From assembly GCF_003692615.1 (NCBI RefSeq), contig NZ_CP023540.1:620001-684000 (forward strand): a stretch of DNA of 64,000 bases, given 5' to 3'. Under the pieces are notes generated by a model. The model did not search any database. It had not been told where the DNA came from and saw only the letters and a list, made by a program, of their open reading frames with translations. The DNA is from Chryseobacterium sp. 6424. GTDB taxonomy: Bacteria; Bacteroidota; Bacteroidia; Flavobacteriales; Weeksellaceae. A program made the translations under genes and the position numbers. This document shows positions 24,756-43,305 of this stretch, piece after piece (position 1 is the stretch's first letter; each line of letters starts with the position of its first letter).

Positions 24756-24868
24756 GGATTCCGGAGGAATCCTATCTGTGTAGAACAATGATCTGATATT
24801 TCCAGGCGCGCTCCGTAGGAGCGCTATCAATCAGCTATAGCAAGCAAAATAGCGTTCCTACGGAACGC
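24756..24868. repeat. REP-like palindromes, including an inverted pair (REPIN-like)
   Basis: Three short palindromes with 3-base loops: GGATTCC-GGA-GGAATCC at 24756-24772, GCGCTCC-GTA-GGAGCGC at 24808-24824, and GCGTTCC-TAC-GGAACGC at 24852-24868. The last two are in inverted orientation 27 bases apart, the layout of a REP doublet. The cores match the palindromes beside the RAYT gene at 37.2 kb. Confidence 0.7.
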
Positions 24869-34452: not shown

Positions 34453-36798
34453 ATGAATGCTCCACAAGCAATTATTGAAACAATTCAATTAAAAGATGGG
34501 CGAGAAATCACCATCGAAACAGGGAAGCTGGCAAAACAGGCCAACGGATCTGTAGTAGTGACAATGGGCGGCACGATGCTTCTGGCAACCGTGGTAGCCA
34601 ACAAAGAGGCCAATCCCGGGGTAGATTTCCTGCCACTGACCGTAGATTACAGAGAGAAATTCTATTCCGGAGGTAAGATCCCCGGAAACTTTTTCAGAAG
34701 AGAGGCAAGACCATCTGATGAGGAAATCCTTACGATGAGATTGGTAGACCGCGTATTGCGCCCACTTTTCCCGGAGGACTTCCATGCAGAGGTGCAGGTG
34801 ATGATTTCCCTGATCTCTTATGACAAAGAAGTGATGCCCGAAGCACTGGCTGGTTTAGCCGCTTCAGCAGCGATCGCGATTACCGATATCCCTTTCAACG
34901 GCCCAATGTCTGAGGTTACTGTCGCCAGAATCGACGGACAGTTGGTGGTAAACCCAAGCAGAGAAAATTTAGACAGAGCAGATCTTAATATCCTTGTAGG
35001 TGCTACCAAAGACTCTATCGTAATGGTAGAAGGTGTGATGGACGAGATCACAGAAGAGGAAATGATCGAAGCCATTAAATTCGCTCACGAAGAGATTAAA
35101 GTTCAAGTTGAAGCTCAGGAAAGACTTGCGGAAAGAGTAGGCAAATCTTTACCGAAAAGAGAATACAGCCACGAAACACACGACGAAGAGATTCGTGATA
35201 AAGTGTGGAAAGAAACTTTCGATAAAGTATATCAGGTTGCGAAAACACCTTCAGCAAAAGAAGAAAGACACGAAAACTTCAAGGCAGTTCTTGAGGAATT
35301 TTTAGCTCAATATTCAGAAGAAGAATTAGAGACAGTGAAGCCATTCGCAAAAATCTACTTTCACGATGTGGAGAAAGAAGCGATGCGCCAGATGATTCTA
35401 AACGACAAAATCCGTTTGGATGGCCGTTCACCGGAAACCATCCGTCCGATCTGGTCAGAGATCGATTATTTGCCGGGTGCTCACGGTTCGGCGGTATTTA
35501 CCAGAGGGGAAACTCAGTCTTTAACAGCCGTAACTTTAGGTTCTGTTAAAGATGCCAACATGGTAGATTCAGTAGCCATCAATTACGACGAGAAATTTTT
35601 CCTTCACTATAATTTCCCGCCATTCTCCACAGGTGAGGCTAGACCTTTAAGAGGAACCTCAAGAAGAGAAGTTGGTCACGGAAACCTGGCGCAGCGTGCG
35701 CTTTCAAGAATTATTCCTGCAGAAAACCCTTATACCATCCGTATCGTTTCAGATATCCTGGAATCCAACGGTTCATCTTCAATGGCAACGGTTTGCGCCG
35801 GAACATTGGCTTTGATGGACGCAGGTGTACAGATTACGAAACCGGTGTCAGGTATCGCCATGGGATTGGTAACTGACCCGGAATCAGGTAAATTCACCGT
35901 ACTTTCAGATATTTTAGGAGACGAAGATCACCTGGGTGATATGGACTTTAAAGTAACCGGCACGGCAGACGGAATCACGGCTTGCCAGATGGACATCAAA
36001 ATCCAGGGACTTTCTATGGACATCATGGAAACTGCATTGAAACAAGCGAGAGAAGGCCGTCTTCATATCCTTGGTGAAATGTTAAAAACAATCGATGCGC
36101 CTCGCACTGATGTGAAATCACACGCTCCGAAAATGGAAGTACTGGAGATTCCTAAGGAATTCATCGGTGCAGTGATCGGGCCTGGCGGAAAGATCATTCA
36201 GCAGATGCAGAAAGATTTTGATACCGTTATCGCCATCGAAGAAATCGGCGAGATCGGTAGAATTGAGATTTCTGGCGTGAGCAGAGAGAACATCAATGCG
36301 ACCATCGCTGCCATCAACGAAATTACTTTTGTACCTGTGATCGGAGAAGTTTACAACGGTAAAGTGGTGAAAGTAATGGATTTCGGTGCGTTCGTAGCGA
36401 TTGCGAAAGGTACTGAAGGTCTTCTTCACATCTCCGAAATCGAGTGGGCAAGACTTGACAAAGTTCCTTACAAAGAAGGCGACATGGTGGAAGTGAAATT
36501 CATGGGTTACGATGACCGTAAGAAGATGAAACTCTCAAGAAAAGTTTTGTTGGAAAGACCTCCAAGACCGGAACGTAAAGAAGGTGAAGGCGATCAGCGC
36601 GAAAACCGCGGCCCAAGAAACGACAGAAGAGATGACCGCAGAGACGGTGGCGATAGAAGACACGGCGGCAACCACCGCGGTGGCAACGACAGACCGCAGC
36701 ACAGTGGCCGCCAAACCGAGAAACCAGCGGGCGAAGACACCTTCAAGCCACTGAACGAAAGCGAAAATACAGATGATGTGAAGCCGGAAGGATTTTAA
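34453..36798 (+). CDS. pnp: Polyribonucleotide nucleotidyltransferase (PNPase)
   Basis: Phosphorolytic 3'-5' exoribonuclease that forms a trimer in the cytoplasm. The 781-aa protein has RNase PH domain 1 (about 10-145), the linking helical domain, RNase PH domain 2 (about 315-545, with [11 protein letters not shown]), a KH domain (about 560-620, [12 protein letters not shown]) and an S1 domain (about 625-695). The tail from about residue 705 is unusual: a disordered stretch rich in Arg, Asp, Gly and Asn, with alternating basic and acidic clusters. Such tails are found in flavobacterial PNPases and may bind RNA. Confidence 0.97.
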
Positions 36799-36910: not shown

Positions 36911-36960
36911 CCCGAATTCGAACCCGTAACCCCGAATTGCATTCGAGGCTATGCACATTC

Positions 36961-37211
36961 GACTCCTTCGGAGTCACGACATGCCGTCAGTCACGCACCC
37001 TCCCCGAACTCCGTAGGAGTTCACTTCGCATAACCCCGCACAAGCGAAGCGCCGTGCGGGTACTACGCGCCCACGTGCGGCCGGACTCCCACTCACACCA
37101 ACCCCGACTCCATAGGAGTCGAACCTGCATATCCTCGAACGCAGTTCGGGGGTTTAGCGCCCCACGTGCCCGCACTCCAACATCTGACCCACTCCGACTC
37201 CGTAGGAGTCG
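36961..37211. repeat. Cluster of REP-like palindromes beside the RAYT gene
   Basis: Four palindromes share the core GACTCC-N3-GGAGTC: 36961-36975 (loop TTC), 37006-37022 (GAACTCC-GTA-GGAGTTC), 37105-37121 (loop ATA) and 37195-37211 (CGACTCCGTAGGAGTCG). Copies 3 and 4 continue as AACCTGCA and AACATGCA. Between them lie further hairpins: CTTCGC / GCGAAG (37024, 37044), CCCGCAC / GTGCGGG (37035, 37054) and CGAAC / GTTCG (37136, 37144). The last palindrome ends nine bases before the stop of the RAYT gene. The stretch is GC-rich and non-coding. Confidence 0.8.
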
Positions 37212-37220
37212 AACATGCAA

Positions 37221-37673
37221 TCAGCTATCCACCCAAAACCATTTGATGTCATCCTCGATTTCCGCTTCCTTCCACAAACGGTGAATTTCTTCCTGGAAAG
37301 TTTCGTTTCGGTGGTGAGCCTGTTGATTTTTGATGTAGTTGATCAGCATATCCTTCTCCCGGATGGAGTAGCTGAACGCACAATACTTAATGCCCCAACC
37401 GATAAAATCGGGGAAAAGTCCGGACTGTTTCATCCATTTTGAAGAAGCTACTTTAATATCTTTCACCAAACCCGCCAAGGCGACAGACGGATGCAGGTCA
37501 AACAGAATATGCACGTGTTCTTCCATCCCGTTGATGCGGTACAGAAGGCAATTTTTGTTTTTTAGAATACCCCAGATGTAGCGGTATAGTTCCGGCGCGT
37601 GAGCAAGCGGAATTGTTTTTCCGCTTGATTTGGTGCGGAAAACGAGGTGATACAGAATTCGGGTGTAGGCCAT
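37221..37673 (-). mobile_element. REP-associated tyrosine transposase (RAYT, IS200/IS605-like Y1 HUH nuclease)
   Basis: 150-aa single-strand DNA nuclease of the Y1 transposase superfamily. It has the HUH motif HVHILFDLHP (His-hydrophobic-His) at about residues 51-60 and the conserved MEEHVH lead-in; the probable catalytic Tyr is in MLINYIKNQQAHHRNETF near 115. The family opening YTRILYHLVFRTK fixes the start at the ATG at 37671-37673; the frame stays open upstream, but only through a repeat array. No flanking IS ends or TnpB gene are visible, whereas a cluster of REP-like palindromes lies directly at the 3' side. This combination is that of a domesticated RAYT. Confidence 0.88.
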
Positions 37674-38482: not shown

Positions 38483-38584
38483 CTTAATTTGTATTTAATT
38501 GTAAATATAACAAACAAATAGTGAAATAAACAAATTATCAATTACGGAAATCATTCCGCAATATTGTTTTATCATTTCCTGTAG

Positions 38585-38710
38585 TTGCGGAACCATTTCT
38601 AACACTTGCGGAATGATTTCTAACCGTCGCGGAAGCATTTCCTGCACTTGCGGAAGCATTTCCTGCATGTGCGGAACCGTTTTCTGCACTTGCGGAATGA
38701 TTTATTAGAG
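38585..38710. repeat. Six-copy 21-bp tandem repeat
   Basis: Six head-to-tail 21-base units starting at 38585, 38606, 38627, 38648, 38669 and 38690, with the core TGCGGAA-N2-ATTTC. As 21 is a multiple of three, the minus strand reads through as a 7-aa periodic peptide (MLPQVQE-like, 38495-38689). Whether this is translated is doubtful. The array lies in the gap between the duplicated-domain gene and the HNH gene. Confidence 0.85.
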
Positions 38711-38772
38711 TAGCGGGAGGATTTAGTCACTGAAAAATAACTCTGAAGTGTGGACTTCAGAGAGTGCGGATT

Positions 38773-39093
38773 TTATTCAATTAGTTTTGGTGGGTTGGTA
38801 ATAGCTTCTTTAACAACGTTTGCTACGGTTTCTGAAGTAATGTTTTTATTCTTACAGTAATTTCCGTCTAACCATATTGATAAAAGTTTTGCACCTTTAC
38901 TTGCGTTGCAGGCCATACAACAAAGAGCAATATTATCAGTTCCATTCATTCGGATATCATTGACAATATGTTCCCAAGAAGCTTTTGTTTTCCGGTTGTC
39001 ATTGGAAAATTCTATACCACAATAGACACAAGTAGAATCTCGTTCTAAAACATACTTTTCAACTTCTATTGGTATGCGCCATCTATTTGCCAT
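38773..39093 (-). CDS. Small HNH endonuclease
   Basis: 106-aa protein with a compact HNH fold. A zinc-binding CVYCG at about 22-26 pairs with CCMACN near 58-63. The catalytic His is in WEHIVND at about 39-45 and the Asn in TDNIALCC. The C-terminal NASKG replaces the last His of the motif by Asn, a known variant. It starts 17 bases after the stop of the Mrr-type gene, so the two form an operon. HNH proteins of this size act in DNA restriction or in mobile elements; here a role with Mrr is inferred from position. Confidence 0.85.
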   Translation of the reverse strand: MANRWRIPIEVEKYVLERDSTCVYCGIEFSNDNRKTKASWEHIVNDIRMNGTDNIALCCMACNASKGAKLLSIWLDGNYCKNKNITSETVANVVKEAITNPPKLIE

Positions 39094-39110
39094 AAGTCAC
39101 CAAATTTATC

Positions 39111-39995
39111 TTAACCCTCCTCAAAGAAATCCATATCAAGCTCCTTAATCTCATAAGTTGCTTTTATTTGTAAACCAACATTATATTGATGCATCAGGTC
39201 CACTAATTTTATTCCATCGATAAGTATTATAGTGTGATGAGCATCACCTGCTTTTTTTATTGCAGCACTATCAAAAGACGAAGTGGTCACAAAAACACCT
39301 TTTTGAGTATCTCCACTCATAGCCCCAATAAAATTTCGAATTTCTTTTTCTCTTACTTTATTTTCACAGTATCGCTTGGCTTGAATATAAATCTTATCCA
39401 AACCTAATTTGTCTTCATTTATTATTCCGTCAATTCCGCCATCACCAGTTTTAGAGGTTTCAATGAAATCTCCATATCCCATTTTCTTCAATAGAATAAG
39501 AATTACTTTTTCGAAATAAAAGGGATCAATTGATTTTAATTTATCAAGTAATTCATCCTTTACTTGTTTTTCAATTTGATCGAAACCTTCATCAATTAAA
39601 TCCTGTGGTGAAGAGTTAACAATCTTGTTTAGAGTGCGATCTACATTGTTGTTTCCCTCATTATAGAATTCGAAAAAACCACTTGAGTTCTCAATGTCAC
39701 TTAATGAGAGTGATTTATTAATGTTAGCCAAGCCTTTTGCAGTAATACGAACCATCCCGCGCTTTGGAAATTCTATAAAACCACCTTTTTTCAGATAAGA
39801 TTTACCCCAGGCAATTCTATTAATAATTAATATTTCGCCGCTCTTCGTTTTTTGTTCTAATTGATCTTGAGATAAGCTGGAATAAAATTTATCAGTTACT
39901 AGTTGGTATAATTCACGGGTATTCAATGTTTCTCCATTTTCGAGAATTTTTAGAATTGGTATAAATGTTTCGTGGAACTTTGGTATTTCTATCAT
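39111..39995 (-). CDS. mrr: Mrr-type restriction endonuclease
   Basis: 294-aa type IV restriction enzyme candidate. An N-terminal winged-helix domain (about 1-95, with LKKGGFIEFPKRGMVRIT) reads DNA; a linker rich in Asp, Glu and Lys follows. The C-terminal PD-(D/E)xK nuclease has FEKVILILLKKMGYGDF, the catalytic TGDGGIDG near 190-197 and IYIQAKRY near 208-215 (Gln-x-Lys variant, normal for Mrr). Mrr enzymes cut DNA carrying foreign base methylation. The gene is visibly more A/T-rich than its neighbours, consistent with transfer. It is first in an operon with the HNH gene. Confidence 0.92.
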   Translation of the reverse strand: MIEIPKFHETFIPILKILENGETLNTRELYQLVTDKFYSSLSQDQLEQKTKSGEILIINRIAWGKSYLKKGGFIEFPKRGMVRITAKGLANINKSLSLSDIENSSGFFEFYNEGNNNVDRTLNKIVNSSPQDLIDEGFDQIEKQVKDELLDKLKSIDPFYFEKVILILLKKMGYGDFIETSKTGDGGIDGIINEDKLGLDKIYIQAKRYCENKVREKEIRNFIGAMSGDTQKGVFVTTSSFDSAAIKKAGDAHHTIILIDGIKLVDLMHQYNVGLQIKATYEIKELDMDFFEEG

Positions 39996-40727: not shown

Positions 40728-41660
40728 AATATCGAAGCTTGTGGCTTCGCGGTATTCTTTCAGCAGATTTTCAAAGACTTTTTCTACCGGCAGTATTTCG
40801 TCAATTAAAGCCGAAACCTGCCCAATCTCGAGTTCGCCTTCCTCCAGATCACCTTCAAACATTCCGCGTTTTGCGCGCGCACGGCCGAGCGTTTGTTTTA
40901 GAGCTTCGGCATCACGGCCTGTTTCATAAAGCTTTTCAAGGTCGTGGAAGAACTTGTTCTTTACGAGTCTTACGGGCGCGAGTTCTTTAAGCGTAAGCTG
41001 CGTGTCGCCTTCGTTGAGGGATATGACTTTGTTTTTCCAGTCGGTGTGTGAACTTGCTTCTTCGGTGGCGGCGAAACGCGAACCGATCTGAACGCCGTCG
41101 GCACCCAGAATCATCGCGGCTTTCATCTGCGAACCGAGCGCGATGCCGCCCGCGGCGATCAGCGGTTTGGAGATGTGTTTCTTCACGTTGGGGATCAGGC
41201 AGAGGGTGGTGGTTTCGTCGCGGCCGTTGTGTCCGCCGGCTTCGAAGCCTTCGGCAACAATAGCGTCAACGCCCGCATCTTCGCATTTGATGGCAAACTT
41301 GGTGGAAGATACCACGTGCGCTACTTTGAGGCCTTCTTTCTGAAGGGCTTGGGTGTAGGTCTTTGGGTTTCCGGCGGAAGTGAAAACGATCTTTACGTCT
41401 TCTTCAAGGATTATCTTAATTATTTCCTCCAGATTCGGGTATAGCATCGGGATGTTGACGCCAAATGGTTTGTCTGTGGCGGCTTTGCATTTGCGGATGT
41501 TCTCGCGCAGGATGTCCGGGTACATGCTGCCGGCACCGATGAGTCCAAGGCCTCCGCTATTGGAAACCGCCGAGGCGAGCCGCCAGCCGGAATGCCAGAT
41601 CATGCCGCCCTGGATGATGGGGTATTTGATTTCGAAGAGTTGGGTGATGGGATTGGTCAT
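40725..41660 (-). CDS. Nitronate monooxygenase (2-nitropropane dioxygenase family)
   Basis: 311-aa FMN-dependent TIM-barrel protein. The family opening PITQLFEIKYPIIQGGMIW fixes the start at the ATG at 41658-41660; the frame runs further upstream but through repeat DNA. Other motifs are SGGLGLIGAGSM, GVDAIVAEGFEAGGHNG with the catalytic His, and the FMN phosphate site AAGGIALGSQMKAAMILGA. It oxidises alkyl nitronates such as propionate-3-nitronate in studied relatives; some members act like the enoyl-ACP reductase FabK. Monocistronic; upstream lie two repeat arrays. Confidence 0.9.
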   Translation of the reverse strand: MTNPITQLFEIKYPIIQGGMIWHSGWRLASAVSNSGGLGLIGAGSMYPDILRENIRKCKAATDKPFGVNIPMLYPNLEEIIKIILEEDVKIVFTSAGNPKTYTQALQKEGLKVAHVVSSTKFAIKCEDAGVDAIVAEGFEAGGHNGRDETTTLCLIPNVKKHISKPLIAAGGIALGSQMKAAMILGADGVQIGSRFAATEEASSHTDWKNKVISLNEGDTQLTLKELAPVRLVKNKFFHDLEKLYETGRDAEALKQTLGRARAKRGMFEGDLEEGELEIGQVSALIDEILPVEKVFENLLKEYREATSFDI

Positions 41661-41683
41661 GGGGTAAAGATAAGGAAAAAGAG

Positions 41684-41746
41684 GCGAGAGGCAAGAGGCG
41701 AGATTCAAGAGTCGAGAGGCGAGATTCAAGAAGCGAGAGGCAAGGA
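41684..41746. repeat. Heptamer tandem array (GCAAGAG family)
   Basis: Nine consecutive 7-nt units with the consensus (G/T)C(A/G)AGA(G/T), in strict 7-base register from 41684 to 41746. It lies 24 bases upstream of the nitronate monooxygenase start. Same unit family as the rRNA spacer elements and the array at 37742. Confidence 0.85.
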
Positions 41747-41782
41747 AAAAGTGAAGGAAATTTCGGGATGTGGTTGTAGGGA

Positions 41783-41906
41783 TTGCTTCGCTGCGCTCGC
41801 AAGGAAGATTTGCGTGGTTGTTGGGGGTTGCTTCGCTGCGCTCGCAATGACGGTTGTTAGAGGTTGCTTCGCTGCGCTCGCAATGATGCGTTGCACTCGC
41901 AATGAT
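41783..41906. repeat. Three identical 20-bp repeats plus a degenerate fourth
   Basis: TTGCTTCGCTGCGCTCGCAA occurs at 41783-41802, 41828-41847 and 41864-41883; a worn copy (GCGTTGCACTCGCAATGAT) follows at 41888. The ends TTGC/GCAA are complementary. The gaps are 25 and 16 bases, too uneven for a CRISPR array. Non-coding. Confidence 0.8.
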
Positions 41907-41940
41907 ACAAAAAATCTCCGCCGAGGCAGAGATTTATATT

Positions 41941-43305
41941 TTAGTTGGTGGCGGTTGTTTTTCGCCAGTCGGTTTTGAAGGTGCAGGTCTTATAACGATC
42001 ATTGATCGAGATAAAGACGTTGGGTAGTTTTTCCTTTACCCATTGCTCTACCATTTCGTTTTTCTTTTTGTTGAGGGCGAGTTGCTTGATGCGGTCATAA
42101 TCGGTGGTAATGTCTAAACGGTGTGCCGCAATTACATCATCTACCTTTACGATGCTTACCACTTTTCGGTCGCGTGTGGTGTCCTGAAAGACATCGGTAA
42201 TATCACCTTTATTCAAACCTGCTATTTGGTAAGAAATAGTTGGCGGAAGATCTAGTTTTTCGATACGGTCGGTACCATCTTCAGCGGTAAGGATTCCGGC
42301 GTTGAATTTCGTCTGTTTGTCATCAGAAAACCGGAAAGCAGCTTCTTTGAAAGTGAGTTTACCATCCATGATCAGCGTTCGGATGCTGTCGAGTTCTTTA
42401 CGGGCGGTCGCGATCTCGTCTGCGTTTGGTTCCGCTTTCAGAAGGATGTGGCGGGCATCGTACATCTTACCGCTTTTCTTGACGAGCTGAATCAGGTGGT
42501 AACCGAATTCTGATTCTACAGGTTCTGAAAGTTCGCCTTCCTGAAGGTTCAGGGCAGCGGCTTCGAAGGGTTTCACCATTTTACCGCGACCTATATTGGT
42601 ATATAAACCGCCATTTGCTGCGGAGCCGGGGTCTTCGGAATAGATACGTGCCTGACTTTCAAAGGATTCGCCGGCGAGGATGTCTTGTTTTATCTTGTTT
42701 AGACGTGCAATGATTTCCGCCTTGTGCGCATCGGTGAGTTTCGGATACATGGTGATCTGCGAAAGGCTAACCTCGTCCTTTACTTCGGGTAACTGATAGC
42801 GGTAGATGTTGAAAAAATCGGTCACTTCATTGGGAGTAACATCGGCTTTTTCGGTAATTCTGCCGTACTTCATCTGTCCGTAATAGTTGTCAGTATCTAT
42901 TTTTTCGATGGCATTCCTCATCTCGTAAGATGTACGGAATTTATAGGAAGAAAGCATTGTTTTTTCATCCGGAAACTGGCTTAGGATCTGATTGTATTTC
43001 TGGGTGGCATTTTCTTTAATGGCAGCAGAGCGGTTTTCAATCAGTGTATCTCTTTTAGCTTCGTAGATGAGGAGTTTATTGTTAATGATGCTTTCTACAA
43101 ATTCGCAGCGGTCTGCCACGCTGGCTCCTTGCTGTTGCGCATAATTGGCCTGTTCTTCAATATCTGACTCCAAAATAATTTCATCACCTACTACCACGGC
43201 AATCCCGTCAACCAGATCGCCGGATTTTAGCTGGGCATTCATTTTCAGACCAAATAGGGTAAAAATAAACGTGGTAAGAAGTGCGAATTTCAGGTGCTTG
43301 TTCAT
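41941..43305 (-). CDS. surA: SurA-like periplasmic peptidyl-prolyl isomerase/chaperone
   Basis: 454-aa periplasmic chaperone for outer membrane proteins. It has a signal peptide (FALLTTFIFTLFGLKMNAQ), a SurA-type N-domain (about 30-160, with DGIAVVVGDEIILESDIE), and two parvulin domains at about 179-277 (SEDPGSAANGGLY, FGYHLIQL) and 281-385 (ARHILLKAEP). The start at 43303-43305 is chosen because it opens a proper signal sequence; the frame stays open for 18 codons upstream. It follows the larger isomerase gene by 66 bases, so both likely come from one transcript. Confidence 0.93.
   Translation of the reverse strand: MNKHLKFALLTTFIFTLFGLKMNAQLKSGDLVDGIAVVVGDEIILESDIEEQANYAQQQGASVADRCEFVESIINNKLLIYEAKRDTLIENRSAAIKENATQKYNQILSQFPDEKTMLSSYKFRTSYEMRNAIEKIDTDNYYGQMKYGRITEKADVTPNEVTDFFNIYRYQLPEVKDEVSLSQITMYPKLTDAHKAEIIARLNKIKQDILAGESFESQARIYSEDPGSAANGGLYTNIGRGKMVKPFEAAALNLQEGELSEPVESEFGYHLIQLVKKSGKMYDARHILLKAEPNADEIATARKELDSIRTLIMDGKLTFKEAAFRFSDDKQTKFNAGILTAEDGTDRIEKLDLPPTISYQIAGLNKGDITDVFQDTTRDRKVVSIVKVDDVIAAHRLDITTDYDRIKQLALNKKKNEMVEQWVKEKLPNVFISINDRYKTCTFKTDWRKTTATN

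Follow-up and report, generated by a model that had tools for sequence, protein, structure and literature searches.

The Y1 HUH family includes the IS200/IS605 transposases (IS608, ISDra2) and the RAYT, or TnpA-REP, transposases that constitute REPtrons together with their REPs and REPINs (PMC2817692, PMC3116915). As described in PMC8266576, TnpA-REP and IS608 choose the hairpin and the cut site through loop and foot bases and a guide sequence. For subclass 1.2 of these transposases, the table in PMC6006769 gives 'REP: no', low copy number and occurrence in Cyanobacteria and Bacteroidetes; the automatic REP search of that paper demanded GTAG or GTGG at the hairpin foot.

Acido-Lenti-1 (RF01687), which Rfam types as an sRNA, was presented by Weinberg 2010 (PMC2864571) as 'probably RNA', not cis-regulatory and present in Acidobacteria and Lentisphaerae. 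PMC13298647 places copies downstream of Tannerella protease genes and discusses the family, of which it says little is known, as a possible regulator, and several copies are reported in one Vibrio chromosome (PMC10059132). Among open-licence papers, we found none that ties Acido-Lenti-1, or the twin units described below, to transposases.

Here we describe the hairpins around a Y1 transposase gene in a 64,000-nucleotide stretch of Chryseobacterium sp. 6424 DNA (the window) and around its relatives. We consider it probable that these palindromes are REP-like, non-autonomous single-stranded DNA elements of subclass 1.2 transposases, recognized through their loops, which the enzymes would bind, cut and mobilize. 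With somewhat less confidence, we favour the wider reading that subclass 1.2 is a separate REP-type system, present in several phyla and based on a loop code (GNA/GNNA) in a two-hairpin register whose stems are free, and that Acido-Lenti-1 is the same DNA element, with both its strand and its molecular nature misassigned.

The window gene and the adjoining palindromes

The gene (37221–37673, minus strand) encodes a 150-aa Y1 HUH protein, as a sequence-only reading of the window had claimed, with a PF01797 (Y1_Tnp) match of 75 bits and a score below the NCBIfam IS200 cut-off. Its Y motif (YIKNQQAHH) and HUH motif (EHVH, given for the subclass as DH[IV]H in PMC6006769) agree with the Y---Q--HH and HUH pattern of subclass 1.2, and residues H53, H55, Y113, Q117, H120 and H121 are invariant among 39 aligned sequences. 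Searched against solved structures, the profile of these 39 sequences picks out the ISDra2 and IS608 transposases, and none of the chains it finds at E 1e-3 is named as a REP transposase; the AlphaFold2 model of the window protein is confident (mean pLDDT 89.6). By its motifs, the protein belongs to subclass 1.2 of Quentin et al. 2018, an IS200-side group, and not to the classical RAYTs. The earlier proposal of a flavobacterial RAYT keeps its Y1 transposase, its REP-like palindromes and its lineage apart from the gammaproteobacterial one, but the protein is of subclass 1.2 rather than class 2 TnpA-REP (Y---NP).

The window lies in one 2,586,303-base contig (C1), which carries two further subclass 1.2 genes (C1:1148217 and C1:449529); their palindromes keep the core but differ in the stem. 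The products of these genes share 37% and 33% identity with the window protein, and no near-identical copy of the window gene was found elsewhere in the genome; three such genes accord with the low copy number and divergent copies that mark the subclass. Four palindromes separate the transposase gene from its conserved neighbour pnp (34453–36798, plus strand). In genome G053, from another genus of the same family, a 93% identical transposase also lies at the 3′ end of pnp, beside a longer array of the same hairpin kind and with a different gene on the far side. From this pair of loci, the transposase gene seems to stay where it is while the adjoining hairpin array is remodelled, a pattern known from REP systems.

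The window contains five copies of CTCC-N3-GGAG, compared with 0.43 expected in shuffles, and four of the five are at 36963–37208. These had been read as four palindromes sharing GACTCC; four are indeed present, but only three have that stem, the one at 37006–37022 being GAACTCC-GTA-GGAGTTC. The last ends at 37211, nine bases from the 3′ end of the transposase gene as first noted, and such hairpins are confined to this side, none being found within 350 bp of the 5′ side.

Elsewhere in the window, an HNH_5-like protein (38773–39995, minus strand; below cut-off) adjoins an Mrr-type restriction endonuclease (Mrr_N and Mrr_cat), a degenerate repeat of about 24 nt (gcggaa-N-catttc type, by eye) occupies 38550–38720 upstream of a PQLLE-family gene, and at 41557–41978 a translated sequence of RAQRSNP / CFAALAM type is repeated in overlapping open reading frames (ORFs) and looks like a short dispersed repeat.

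Hairpins at related genes and the twin unit

The wider comparison covers 83 loci: the best 80 of 533 relatives from a scan of species genomes with a 12-protein alignment, which come from Bacteroidota and several other phyla, together with the window gene and the two other genes of its genome. Hairpins of every loop size are denser near these genes than far from them, and perfect hairpins with a 3-nt loop and a stem of at least 6 number 6.6 per kb up to 150 bp from the gene, compared with 0.50 per kb at 2–4 kb. When loops are pooled with their complements, the 229 near triloops include 116 GAA, which is the commonest loop at these loci, 31 GTA, 26 GCA and 6 GGA, compared with 30 GNA among 186 far ones. 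With coding sequence masked, GNA hairpins occur at 4.33 per kb near versus 0.20 per kb far (Fisher odds 15, p = 4e-12, kinship ignored) and other triloops at 1.53 versus 1.04 per kb, giving noncoding density ratios of 22 and 1.5, respectively.

At least one GNA hairpin lies within 300 bp in 67 of the 83 loci, compared with 2.9% of random windows of the same size (81 loci); in 16 of the 83, a GNA hairpin with a stem of at least 6 is absent. The 73 loci with full flanks hold 167 GNA hairpins near the gene in 43.8 kb and 29 far from it in 360 kb. Four-nucleotide loops behave in the same way, GNNA making up 25 of the 61 near ones compared with 24 of the 151 far ones (p = 2e-4). DNA mini-hairpins with GNA and GNNA loops are described as exceptionally stable, GAA more so than GTA (PMC4686876, PMC6479982). 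In a FastTree tree of 130 Y1 proteins, built on few columns and with many unresolved forks, one branch of full local support comprises 83 rows including the window protein, and GNA hairpins accompany 69 of these 83 proteins versus 14 of the 47 outside.

The hairpins are also oriented. Within 300 bp of the gene, 145 single hairpins point inward and 35 outward, compared with 14 and 16 among the far ones; on the 5′ side 78 share the strand of the gene and 19 take the opposite one, and on the 3′ side 67 are opposite to the gene and 16 on its strand. Stems of 7 bp with one mispair, read on the GNA strand, contain G.T in 45 cases and A.C in 6 near the gene (p = 2e-8; 30 and 6 distinct sequences), compared with 20 and 12 farther off (near versus far, p = 0.012). 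From this excess of G.T over A.C, we conclude that it is the GNA strand whose ability to fold is maintained. The excess extends to 3′-side hairpins with the GNA strand antisense to the gene (G.T 17, A.C 2), where the gene's own messenger cannot explain it; we take it there as evidence that points to the folding of single-stranded DNA, with an antisense transcript as the alternative.

Many hairpins are joined in a composite: H1, with a free stem and a GNA loop, is followed by a linker close to AAYNTGAATARC and by H2, the two centres being 29 nt apart. Among same-strand consecutive hairpins up to 400 bp from the gene, this spacing was seen in 27 cases, spacings of 28, 30 or 31 nt in 7 and of 39–41 nt in 17; two-hairpin composites 28–30 nt apart number 38 in 26 loci, and whole composites up to 1 kb from the gene are weakly inward (22 versus 16 outward). 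In 30 distinct 29-nt composites, from which we built the covariance model R1, H1 is followed by N-AAYNTGAATARC and H2, and positions +17 and +20 are always T and C. The R1 alignment pairs in 98.6% of cells compared with 31–51% for slid structures, which is owed in part to the selection of perfect stems. Among these 30 composites, ATARC lies 5′ of H2, nothing is conserved 5′ of H1 and no GT[AG]G foot is conserved on the 5′ side of the hairpins.

The constant part is the GNA loop, the linker and the spacing; the stems vary. That the stem is not the constant part follows from the window genome, where 9 of the 23 CTCC-N3-GGAG sites fall at two transposase genes and 8 of the 28 TCCGTAGGA sites at the three subclass 1.2 genes, whose stems differ. 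CTCCGTAGGAG, put forward earlier as the constant REP core, is replaced by these three features. The AAC(A/C)TGCA flank named with it is conserved, not as a separate flank but as the start of the unit's linker, and the other hairpins noticed between the palindromes are the H2 of the repeated two-hairpin unit.

Three twin units and one single hairpin make up the window cluster. Unit A (36926–36980, minus strand), directed outward, scores 61.7 bits with R1 but is one of its 30 training copies; its H1 (36961–36975) reads GACTCC[GAA]GGAGTC on the minus strand and is followed by the linker and H2 (36930–36948). Unit B (37002–37063, plus strand; 22.9 bits, E = 9.4e-4), directed inward, comprises H1 (37006–37022, GAACTCC[GTA]GGAGTTC), the linker and an H2 (37035–37060) with a 12-nt loop containing GCGAAGC. 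Unit C (37101–37155, plus strand), also inward, reaches 42.9 bits (E = 1.3e-8) and lies outside the training set; its H1 (37105–37121) has the loop ATA, not GNA, and is followed by the linker AACCTGCATAT and by H2 (37133–37151), which is CCTCGAAC[GCA]GTTCGGGG. The gene-proximal hairpin H3 (37195–37211, plus strand), CGACTCC[GTA]GGAGTCG followed by AACATGCA, ends 9 bp off the 3′ end of the gene and is inward, with its GNA strand opposite to the gene; this single hairpin gives an R1 match at 37191–37238 (20.1 bits, E = 0.0046).

Copies in the genome, dispersal among relatives and Acido-Lenti-1

ACTCC-N3-GGAGT occurs five times in the whole genome, four of them in the window cluster, versus none for the reversed control; the one copy away from the window gene lies around C1:313025 and has the loop GCA. 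The sequence-only reading had looked to a genome-wide excess of CTCC-N3-GGAG, and there are 23 copies versus 10 of the reversed control; two transposase genes, however, account for 9 of the 23, and the lack of such an excess, which that reading named as a refutation, largely applies to this genome. R1 gives seven matches in the genome (E 0.1), all at these two genes, and finds no twin unit away from transposase genes. A genome-wide REP built on the GACTCC stem is rejected, the R1 units being confined to two transposase genes. The shorter TCCGTAGGA occurs 28 times versus 16 for its reversed control, with 8 of the 28 at the three subclass 1.2 genes and 2 forming a pair 24.8 kb into the window; of the other 18 sites, all inspected, only that at C1:1725749 has a stem of 7 and the rest have stems of 3–5.

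A second hairpin type, GCGYTCCGTAGGARCGCTAT, has five copies versus one in the reversed control: two flank the C1:449529 gene, one lies at C1:1725742 and two form an inverted pair in the window (24808–24868) at which there is no transposase match. This pair resembles a REPIN-like dimer without a gene. Locus L004 (C1:745714–748800) has a class-2-like Y1 gene with a YIHRNP motif, below the Pfam cut-off; palindromes of AAACCTCATAGGTTTTCGAAACCTATGAG type lie on either side of it, and it may be a REPtron of subclass 2.6.

Within the family, R1 finds units in 27 of 60 genomes, with 38 matches each in G054 and G003 and 24 in G036. Among genomes that have a class-1 Y1 gene, 22 of 30 contain units, compared with 5 of 30 among those that lack one (Fisher p = 2e-5, kinship ignored; presence read by bit score, with two partial genes counted as present). 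Equal abundance in relatives without the gene, the other refutation named by the sequence-only reading, is thus not seen for the unit in this family. The totals are 205 matches in gene-bearing genomes versus 19 in the others, with gene-adjacent units included. G037, which has no Y1 match at all, gives eight R1 matches; the gene is present in two other members of its genus, G008 and G054. In a set of 148 Bacteroidota genomes, R1 occurs in 27 of 86 with an IS200-type match versus 10 of 62 without (p = 0.037), the latter including G098 (22 units), G069 (14) and G161 (11). The unit tracks the gene within the family and weakly across the phylum, and draft assemblies may add to the units without a gene at phylum level. 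In one genus (G069, G098 and G114), R1 units are many, two of the three genomes (G069, G098) have no IS200-type match, and several units lie near contig ends, as if adjoining a collapsed repeat.

Viewed by eye, dispersed units in G054 have the order H1, linker, H2 with unlike flanks, several in direct tandem 66–69 nt apart; in G181 three unit pairs are inverted, judged by positions. In G036 (C10:30659–30946), six shortened R1 matches repeat in direct tandem about every 50 nt. For orientation, 77 of the 94 unit loci from model searches were examined, the 17 left out being five to eight of the present genome and otherwise tandem neighbours, weak or gene-adjacent; after five were dropped (short contigs) and 8 set aside as near a Y1 gene, 64 dispersed units from 29 genomes remained. 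By the ORF rule all 64 lie between genes; 57 read in the sense of the upstream gene, and 50 in that of both neighbours. The 32 units of G169 are mixed: 20 share the sense of the upstream gene, 18 fall within crude ORF calls, and 17 agree with the GC skew and 15 do not. In most stretches taken from G054, units agree with the regional GC skew, with exceptions at 777544, which follows genes against the skew, and 74640, which follows the skew against genes. Possible causes of the orientation bias are transcription-linked single strands, the lagging-strand template and RNA-level selection.

A scan with Rfam placed RF01687 on the other strand of the units in 2 of 15 unit-bearing loci (L249 and L250), below the gathering score. 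An encyclopaedia entry puts Acido-Lenti-1 near group II introns. RF01687 has no match in the window genome and one, below the cut-off, among 14 control genomes; it occurs in 35 of the 148 Bacteroidota genomes, over the gathering score in 13, with 37 matches in G169. Of 28 fetched RF01687 loci, 22 were given to R1, and in 13 of these the central RF01687 match coincides with an R1 match, always on the opposite strand. R1 is in register with the reverse complement of RF01687, and the two models find overlapping, not equal, sets. RF01687 also keeps company with the transposases: among the matches listed, 20 of 150 lie within 1 kb of a Y1 gene versus 0.2 expected (64 Y1 genes entered; the 20 lie at 8 genes in 8 genomes), and it occurs in 29 of the 86 genomes that have an IS200-type match, compared with 6 of the 62 that do not (p = 7e-4, kinship ignored). 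The 20 gene-near matches have no inward bias (7 inward, 13 outward). At six loci from other phyla (L040, L061, L079, L081, L084 and L075), RF01687 was found only at L079, weakly. Long hairpin repeats at locus L066 (2946–3023 and 3743–3820) give a weak match to an Rfam microRNA family, far below the gathering score.

Proposed mechanism, alternatives and comparison with known systems

We propose that the twin unit (H1, AAYNTGAATARC linker, H2) would be the cognate recognition unit of the transposase, defined by GNA/GNNA loops and not by stems. In a single-stranded state (at a fork, in repair or in transcription), the GNA strand could fold into very stable mini-hairpins, of which the enzyme would read loop and foot, cutting one strand near the linker through its tyrosine and being able to rejoin it. 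In this way units would build up arrays by local multiplication and occasionally arrive at new intergenic sites, with the gene staying put as in REP/RAYT systems and the dispersed units being non-autonomous. Loop reading and a cut near the linker are proposed because of the analogy with TnpA-REP and IS608 as described in PMC8266576. The comparison establishes that the unit is associated with the gene, how it is built, which strand folds, that it is dispersed in some relatives bearing the gene and that it coincides with RF01687; protein binding, the cut site and mobilization in trans are inferred. Acido-Lenti-1, with whose reverse complement the unit is in register, may thus be better seen as a transposase-linked DNA element.

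The strongest of the alternatives, which we nonetheless regard as improbable, takes the unit for a structured RNA, either a small RNA or an element that processes or stabilizes messengers, and treats its nearness to transposases as secondary. The Rfam type and the 'probably RNA' of Weinberg 2010 (PMC2864571) speak for it, as do the dispersed units sense to the upstream gene (57 of 64) or to both neighbours (50 of 64), and G.T-tolerant stems fit RNA too. Yet the strand modelled by Rfam is opposite to the one kept foldable here, the 3′-side hairpins are antisense to the gene in 67 of 83 cases with mispairs there still favouring G.T (17 versus 2), the sense bias is mixed in G169, and of the RF01687 matches listed, 20 of 150 have a Y1 gene within 1 kb, far above the 0.2 expected.

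A little less probable again is that the gene belongs, together with the modules on its flanks, to an autonomous insertion sequence with a novel layout of inverted hairpin ends, of which the dispersed units are relics. Some loci, such as L059 and L068, have inward hairpins on either side of the gene, which speaks for it, as do relatives in several phyla among the best 80 of 533. Against it, the window protein has no nearer copy in its genome than the proteins 37% and 33% identical to it, the 93% identical gene in another genus sits at the same pnp 3′ end with a different array, and the window gene is without such a hairpin within 350 bp of its 5′ side.

It is very improbable that the gene is a canonical class 2 RAYT with GTAG-foot REPs that merely happens to be in a flavobacterium: its Y1 HUH core, and the JGI name 'REP element-mobilizing transposase RayT' borne by many relatives, are set against YIKNQQAHH in place of Y---NP, hairpins without a conserved GT[AG]G foot on their 5′ side and a profile that finds IS608 and ISDra2 but no chain named as a REP transposase at E 1e-3. 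Chance palindromes or ordinary terminators in an intergenic gap can be dismissed, as all loop sizes are denser near the gene but the noncoding near-gene density is specific to GNA (ratio 22 versus 1.5 for other triloops) and spacing, linker and orientation are non-random.

If REP-like single-stranded DNA elements with loop-based recognition are the correct reading, the twin unit would supply a substrate for a transposase subclass published as having none, and an origin for an orphan 'RNA' family still discussed as a possible regulator (PMC13298647). It would also suggest a simple recognition code, in which very stable GNA/GNNA DNA hairpins are combined with free stems.

Compared with described systems, the window protein shares with subclass 1.2, as characterized in PMC6006769, the Y---Q--HH motif, a length of about 150 aa, few divergent copies and a Bacteroidetes-rich distribution; in contrast to the 'REP: no' of its table, most members of one large branch here have flanking GNA hairpins. 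Acido-Lenti-1 has the same two-hairpin layout as the twin unit on the complementary strand, but its modelled strand is not the one kept foldable in twin units, and the RF01687 model misses most of the R1 units tried. CGTC REPs, as presented in PMC3733652, were rejected as a match: they have other loop sizes, a CGTC end and no transposase link.

The IS200/IS605 transposases (IS608, ISDra2) belong to the same Y1 HUH family and are the closest solved structures by sequence profile. An IS200/IS605 insertion sequence was rejected as a candidate, with no near-identical copies found and the relatives' hairpins mostly on opposite strands at the two sides. Of six IS200-type (class 1.1) control loci, too few to give a rate, three have a TTC or TTT loop at each end, on the sense strand, and not inward GNA pairs; GNA/TNC hairpins also occur near some of these loci. 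With REPtrons, as described in PMC2817692 and PMC3116915, the system shares a Y1 gene outside an insertion sequence and local clusters of palindromes. The inverted flanking layout is seen for single hairpins over the 83 loci (145 inward, 35 outward), weakly for whole units (22 and 16) and on the 3′ side alone at the window gene, and dispersed intergenic copies are seen in some relatives and, as three copies of the second hairpin type, in the window genome. It differs from them in that the protein is of class 1, the hairpins have no GTAG foot, the unit consists of two hairpins in a fixed register, the loop is constant and the stem free, copies are fewer in the genomes searched and, in G054, the arrangement is often a direct tandem.
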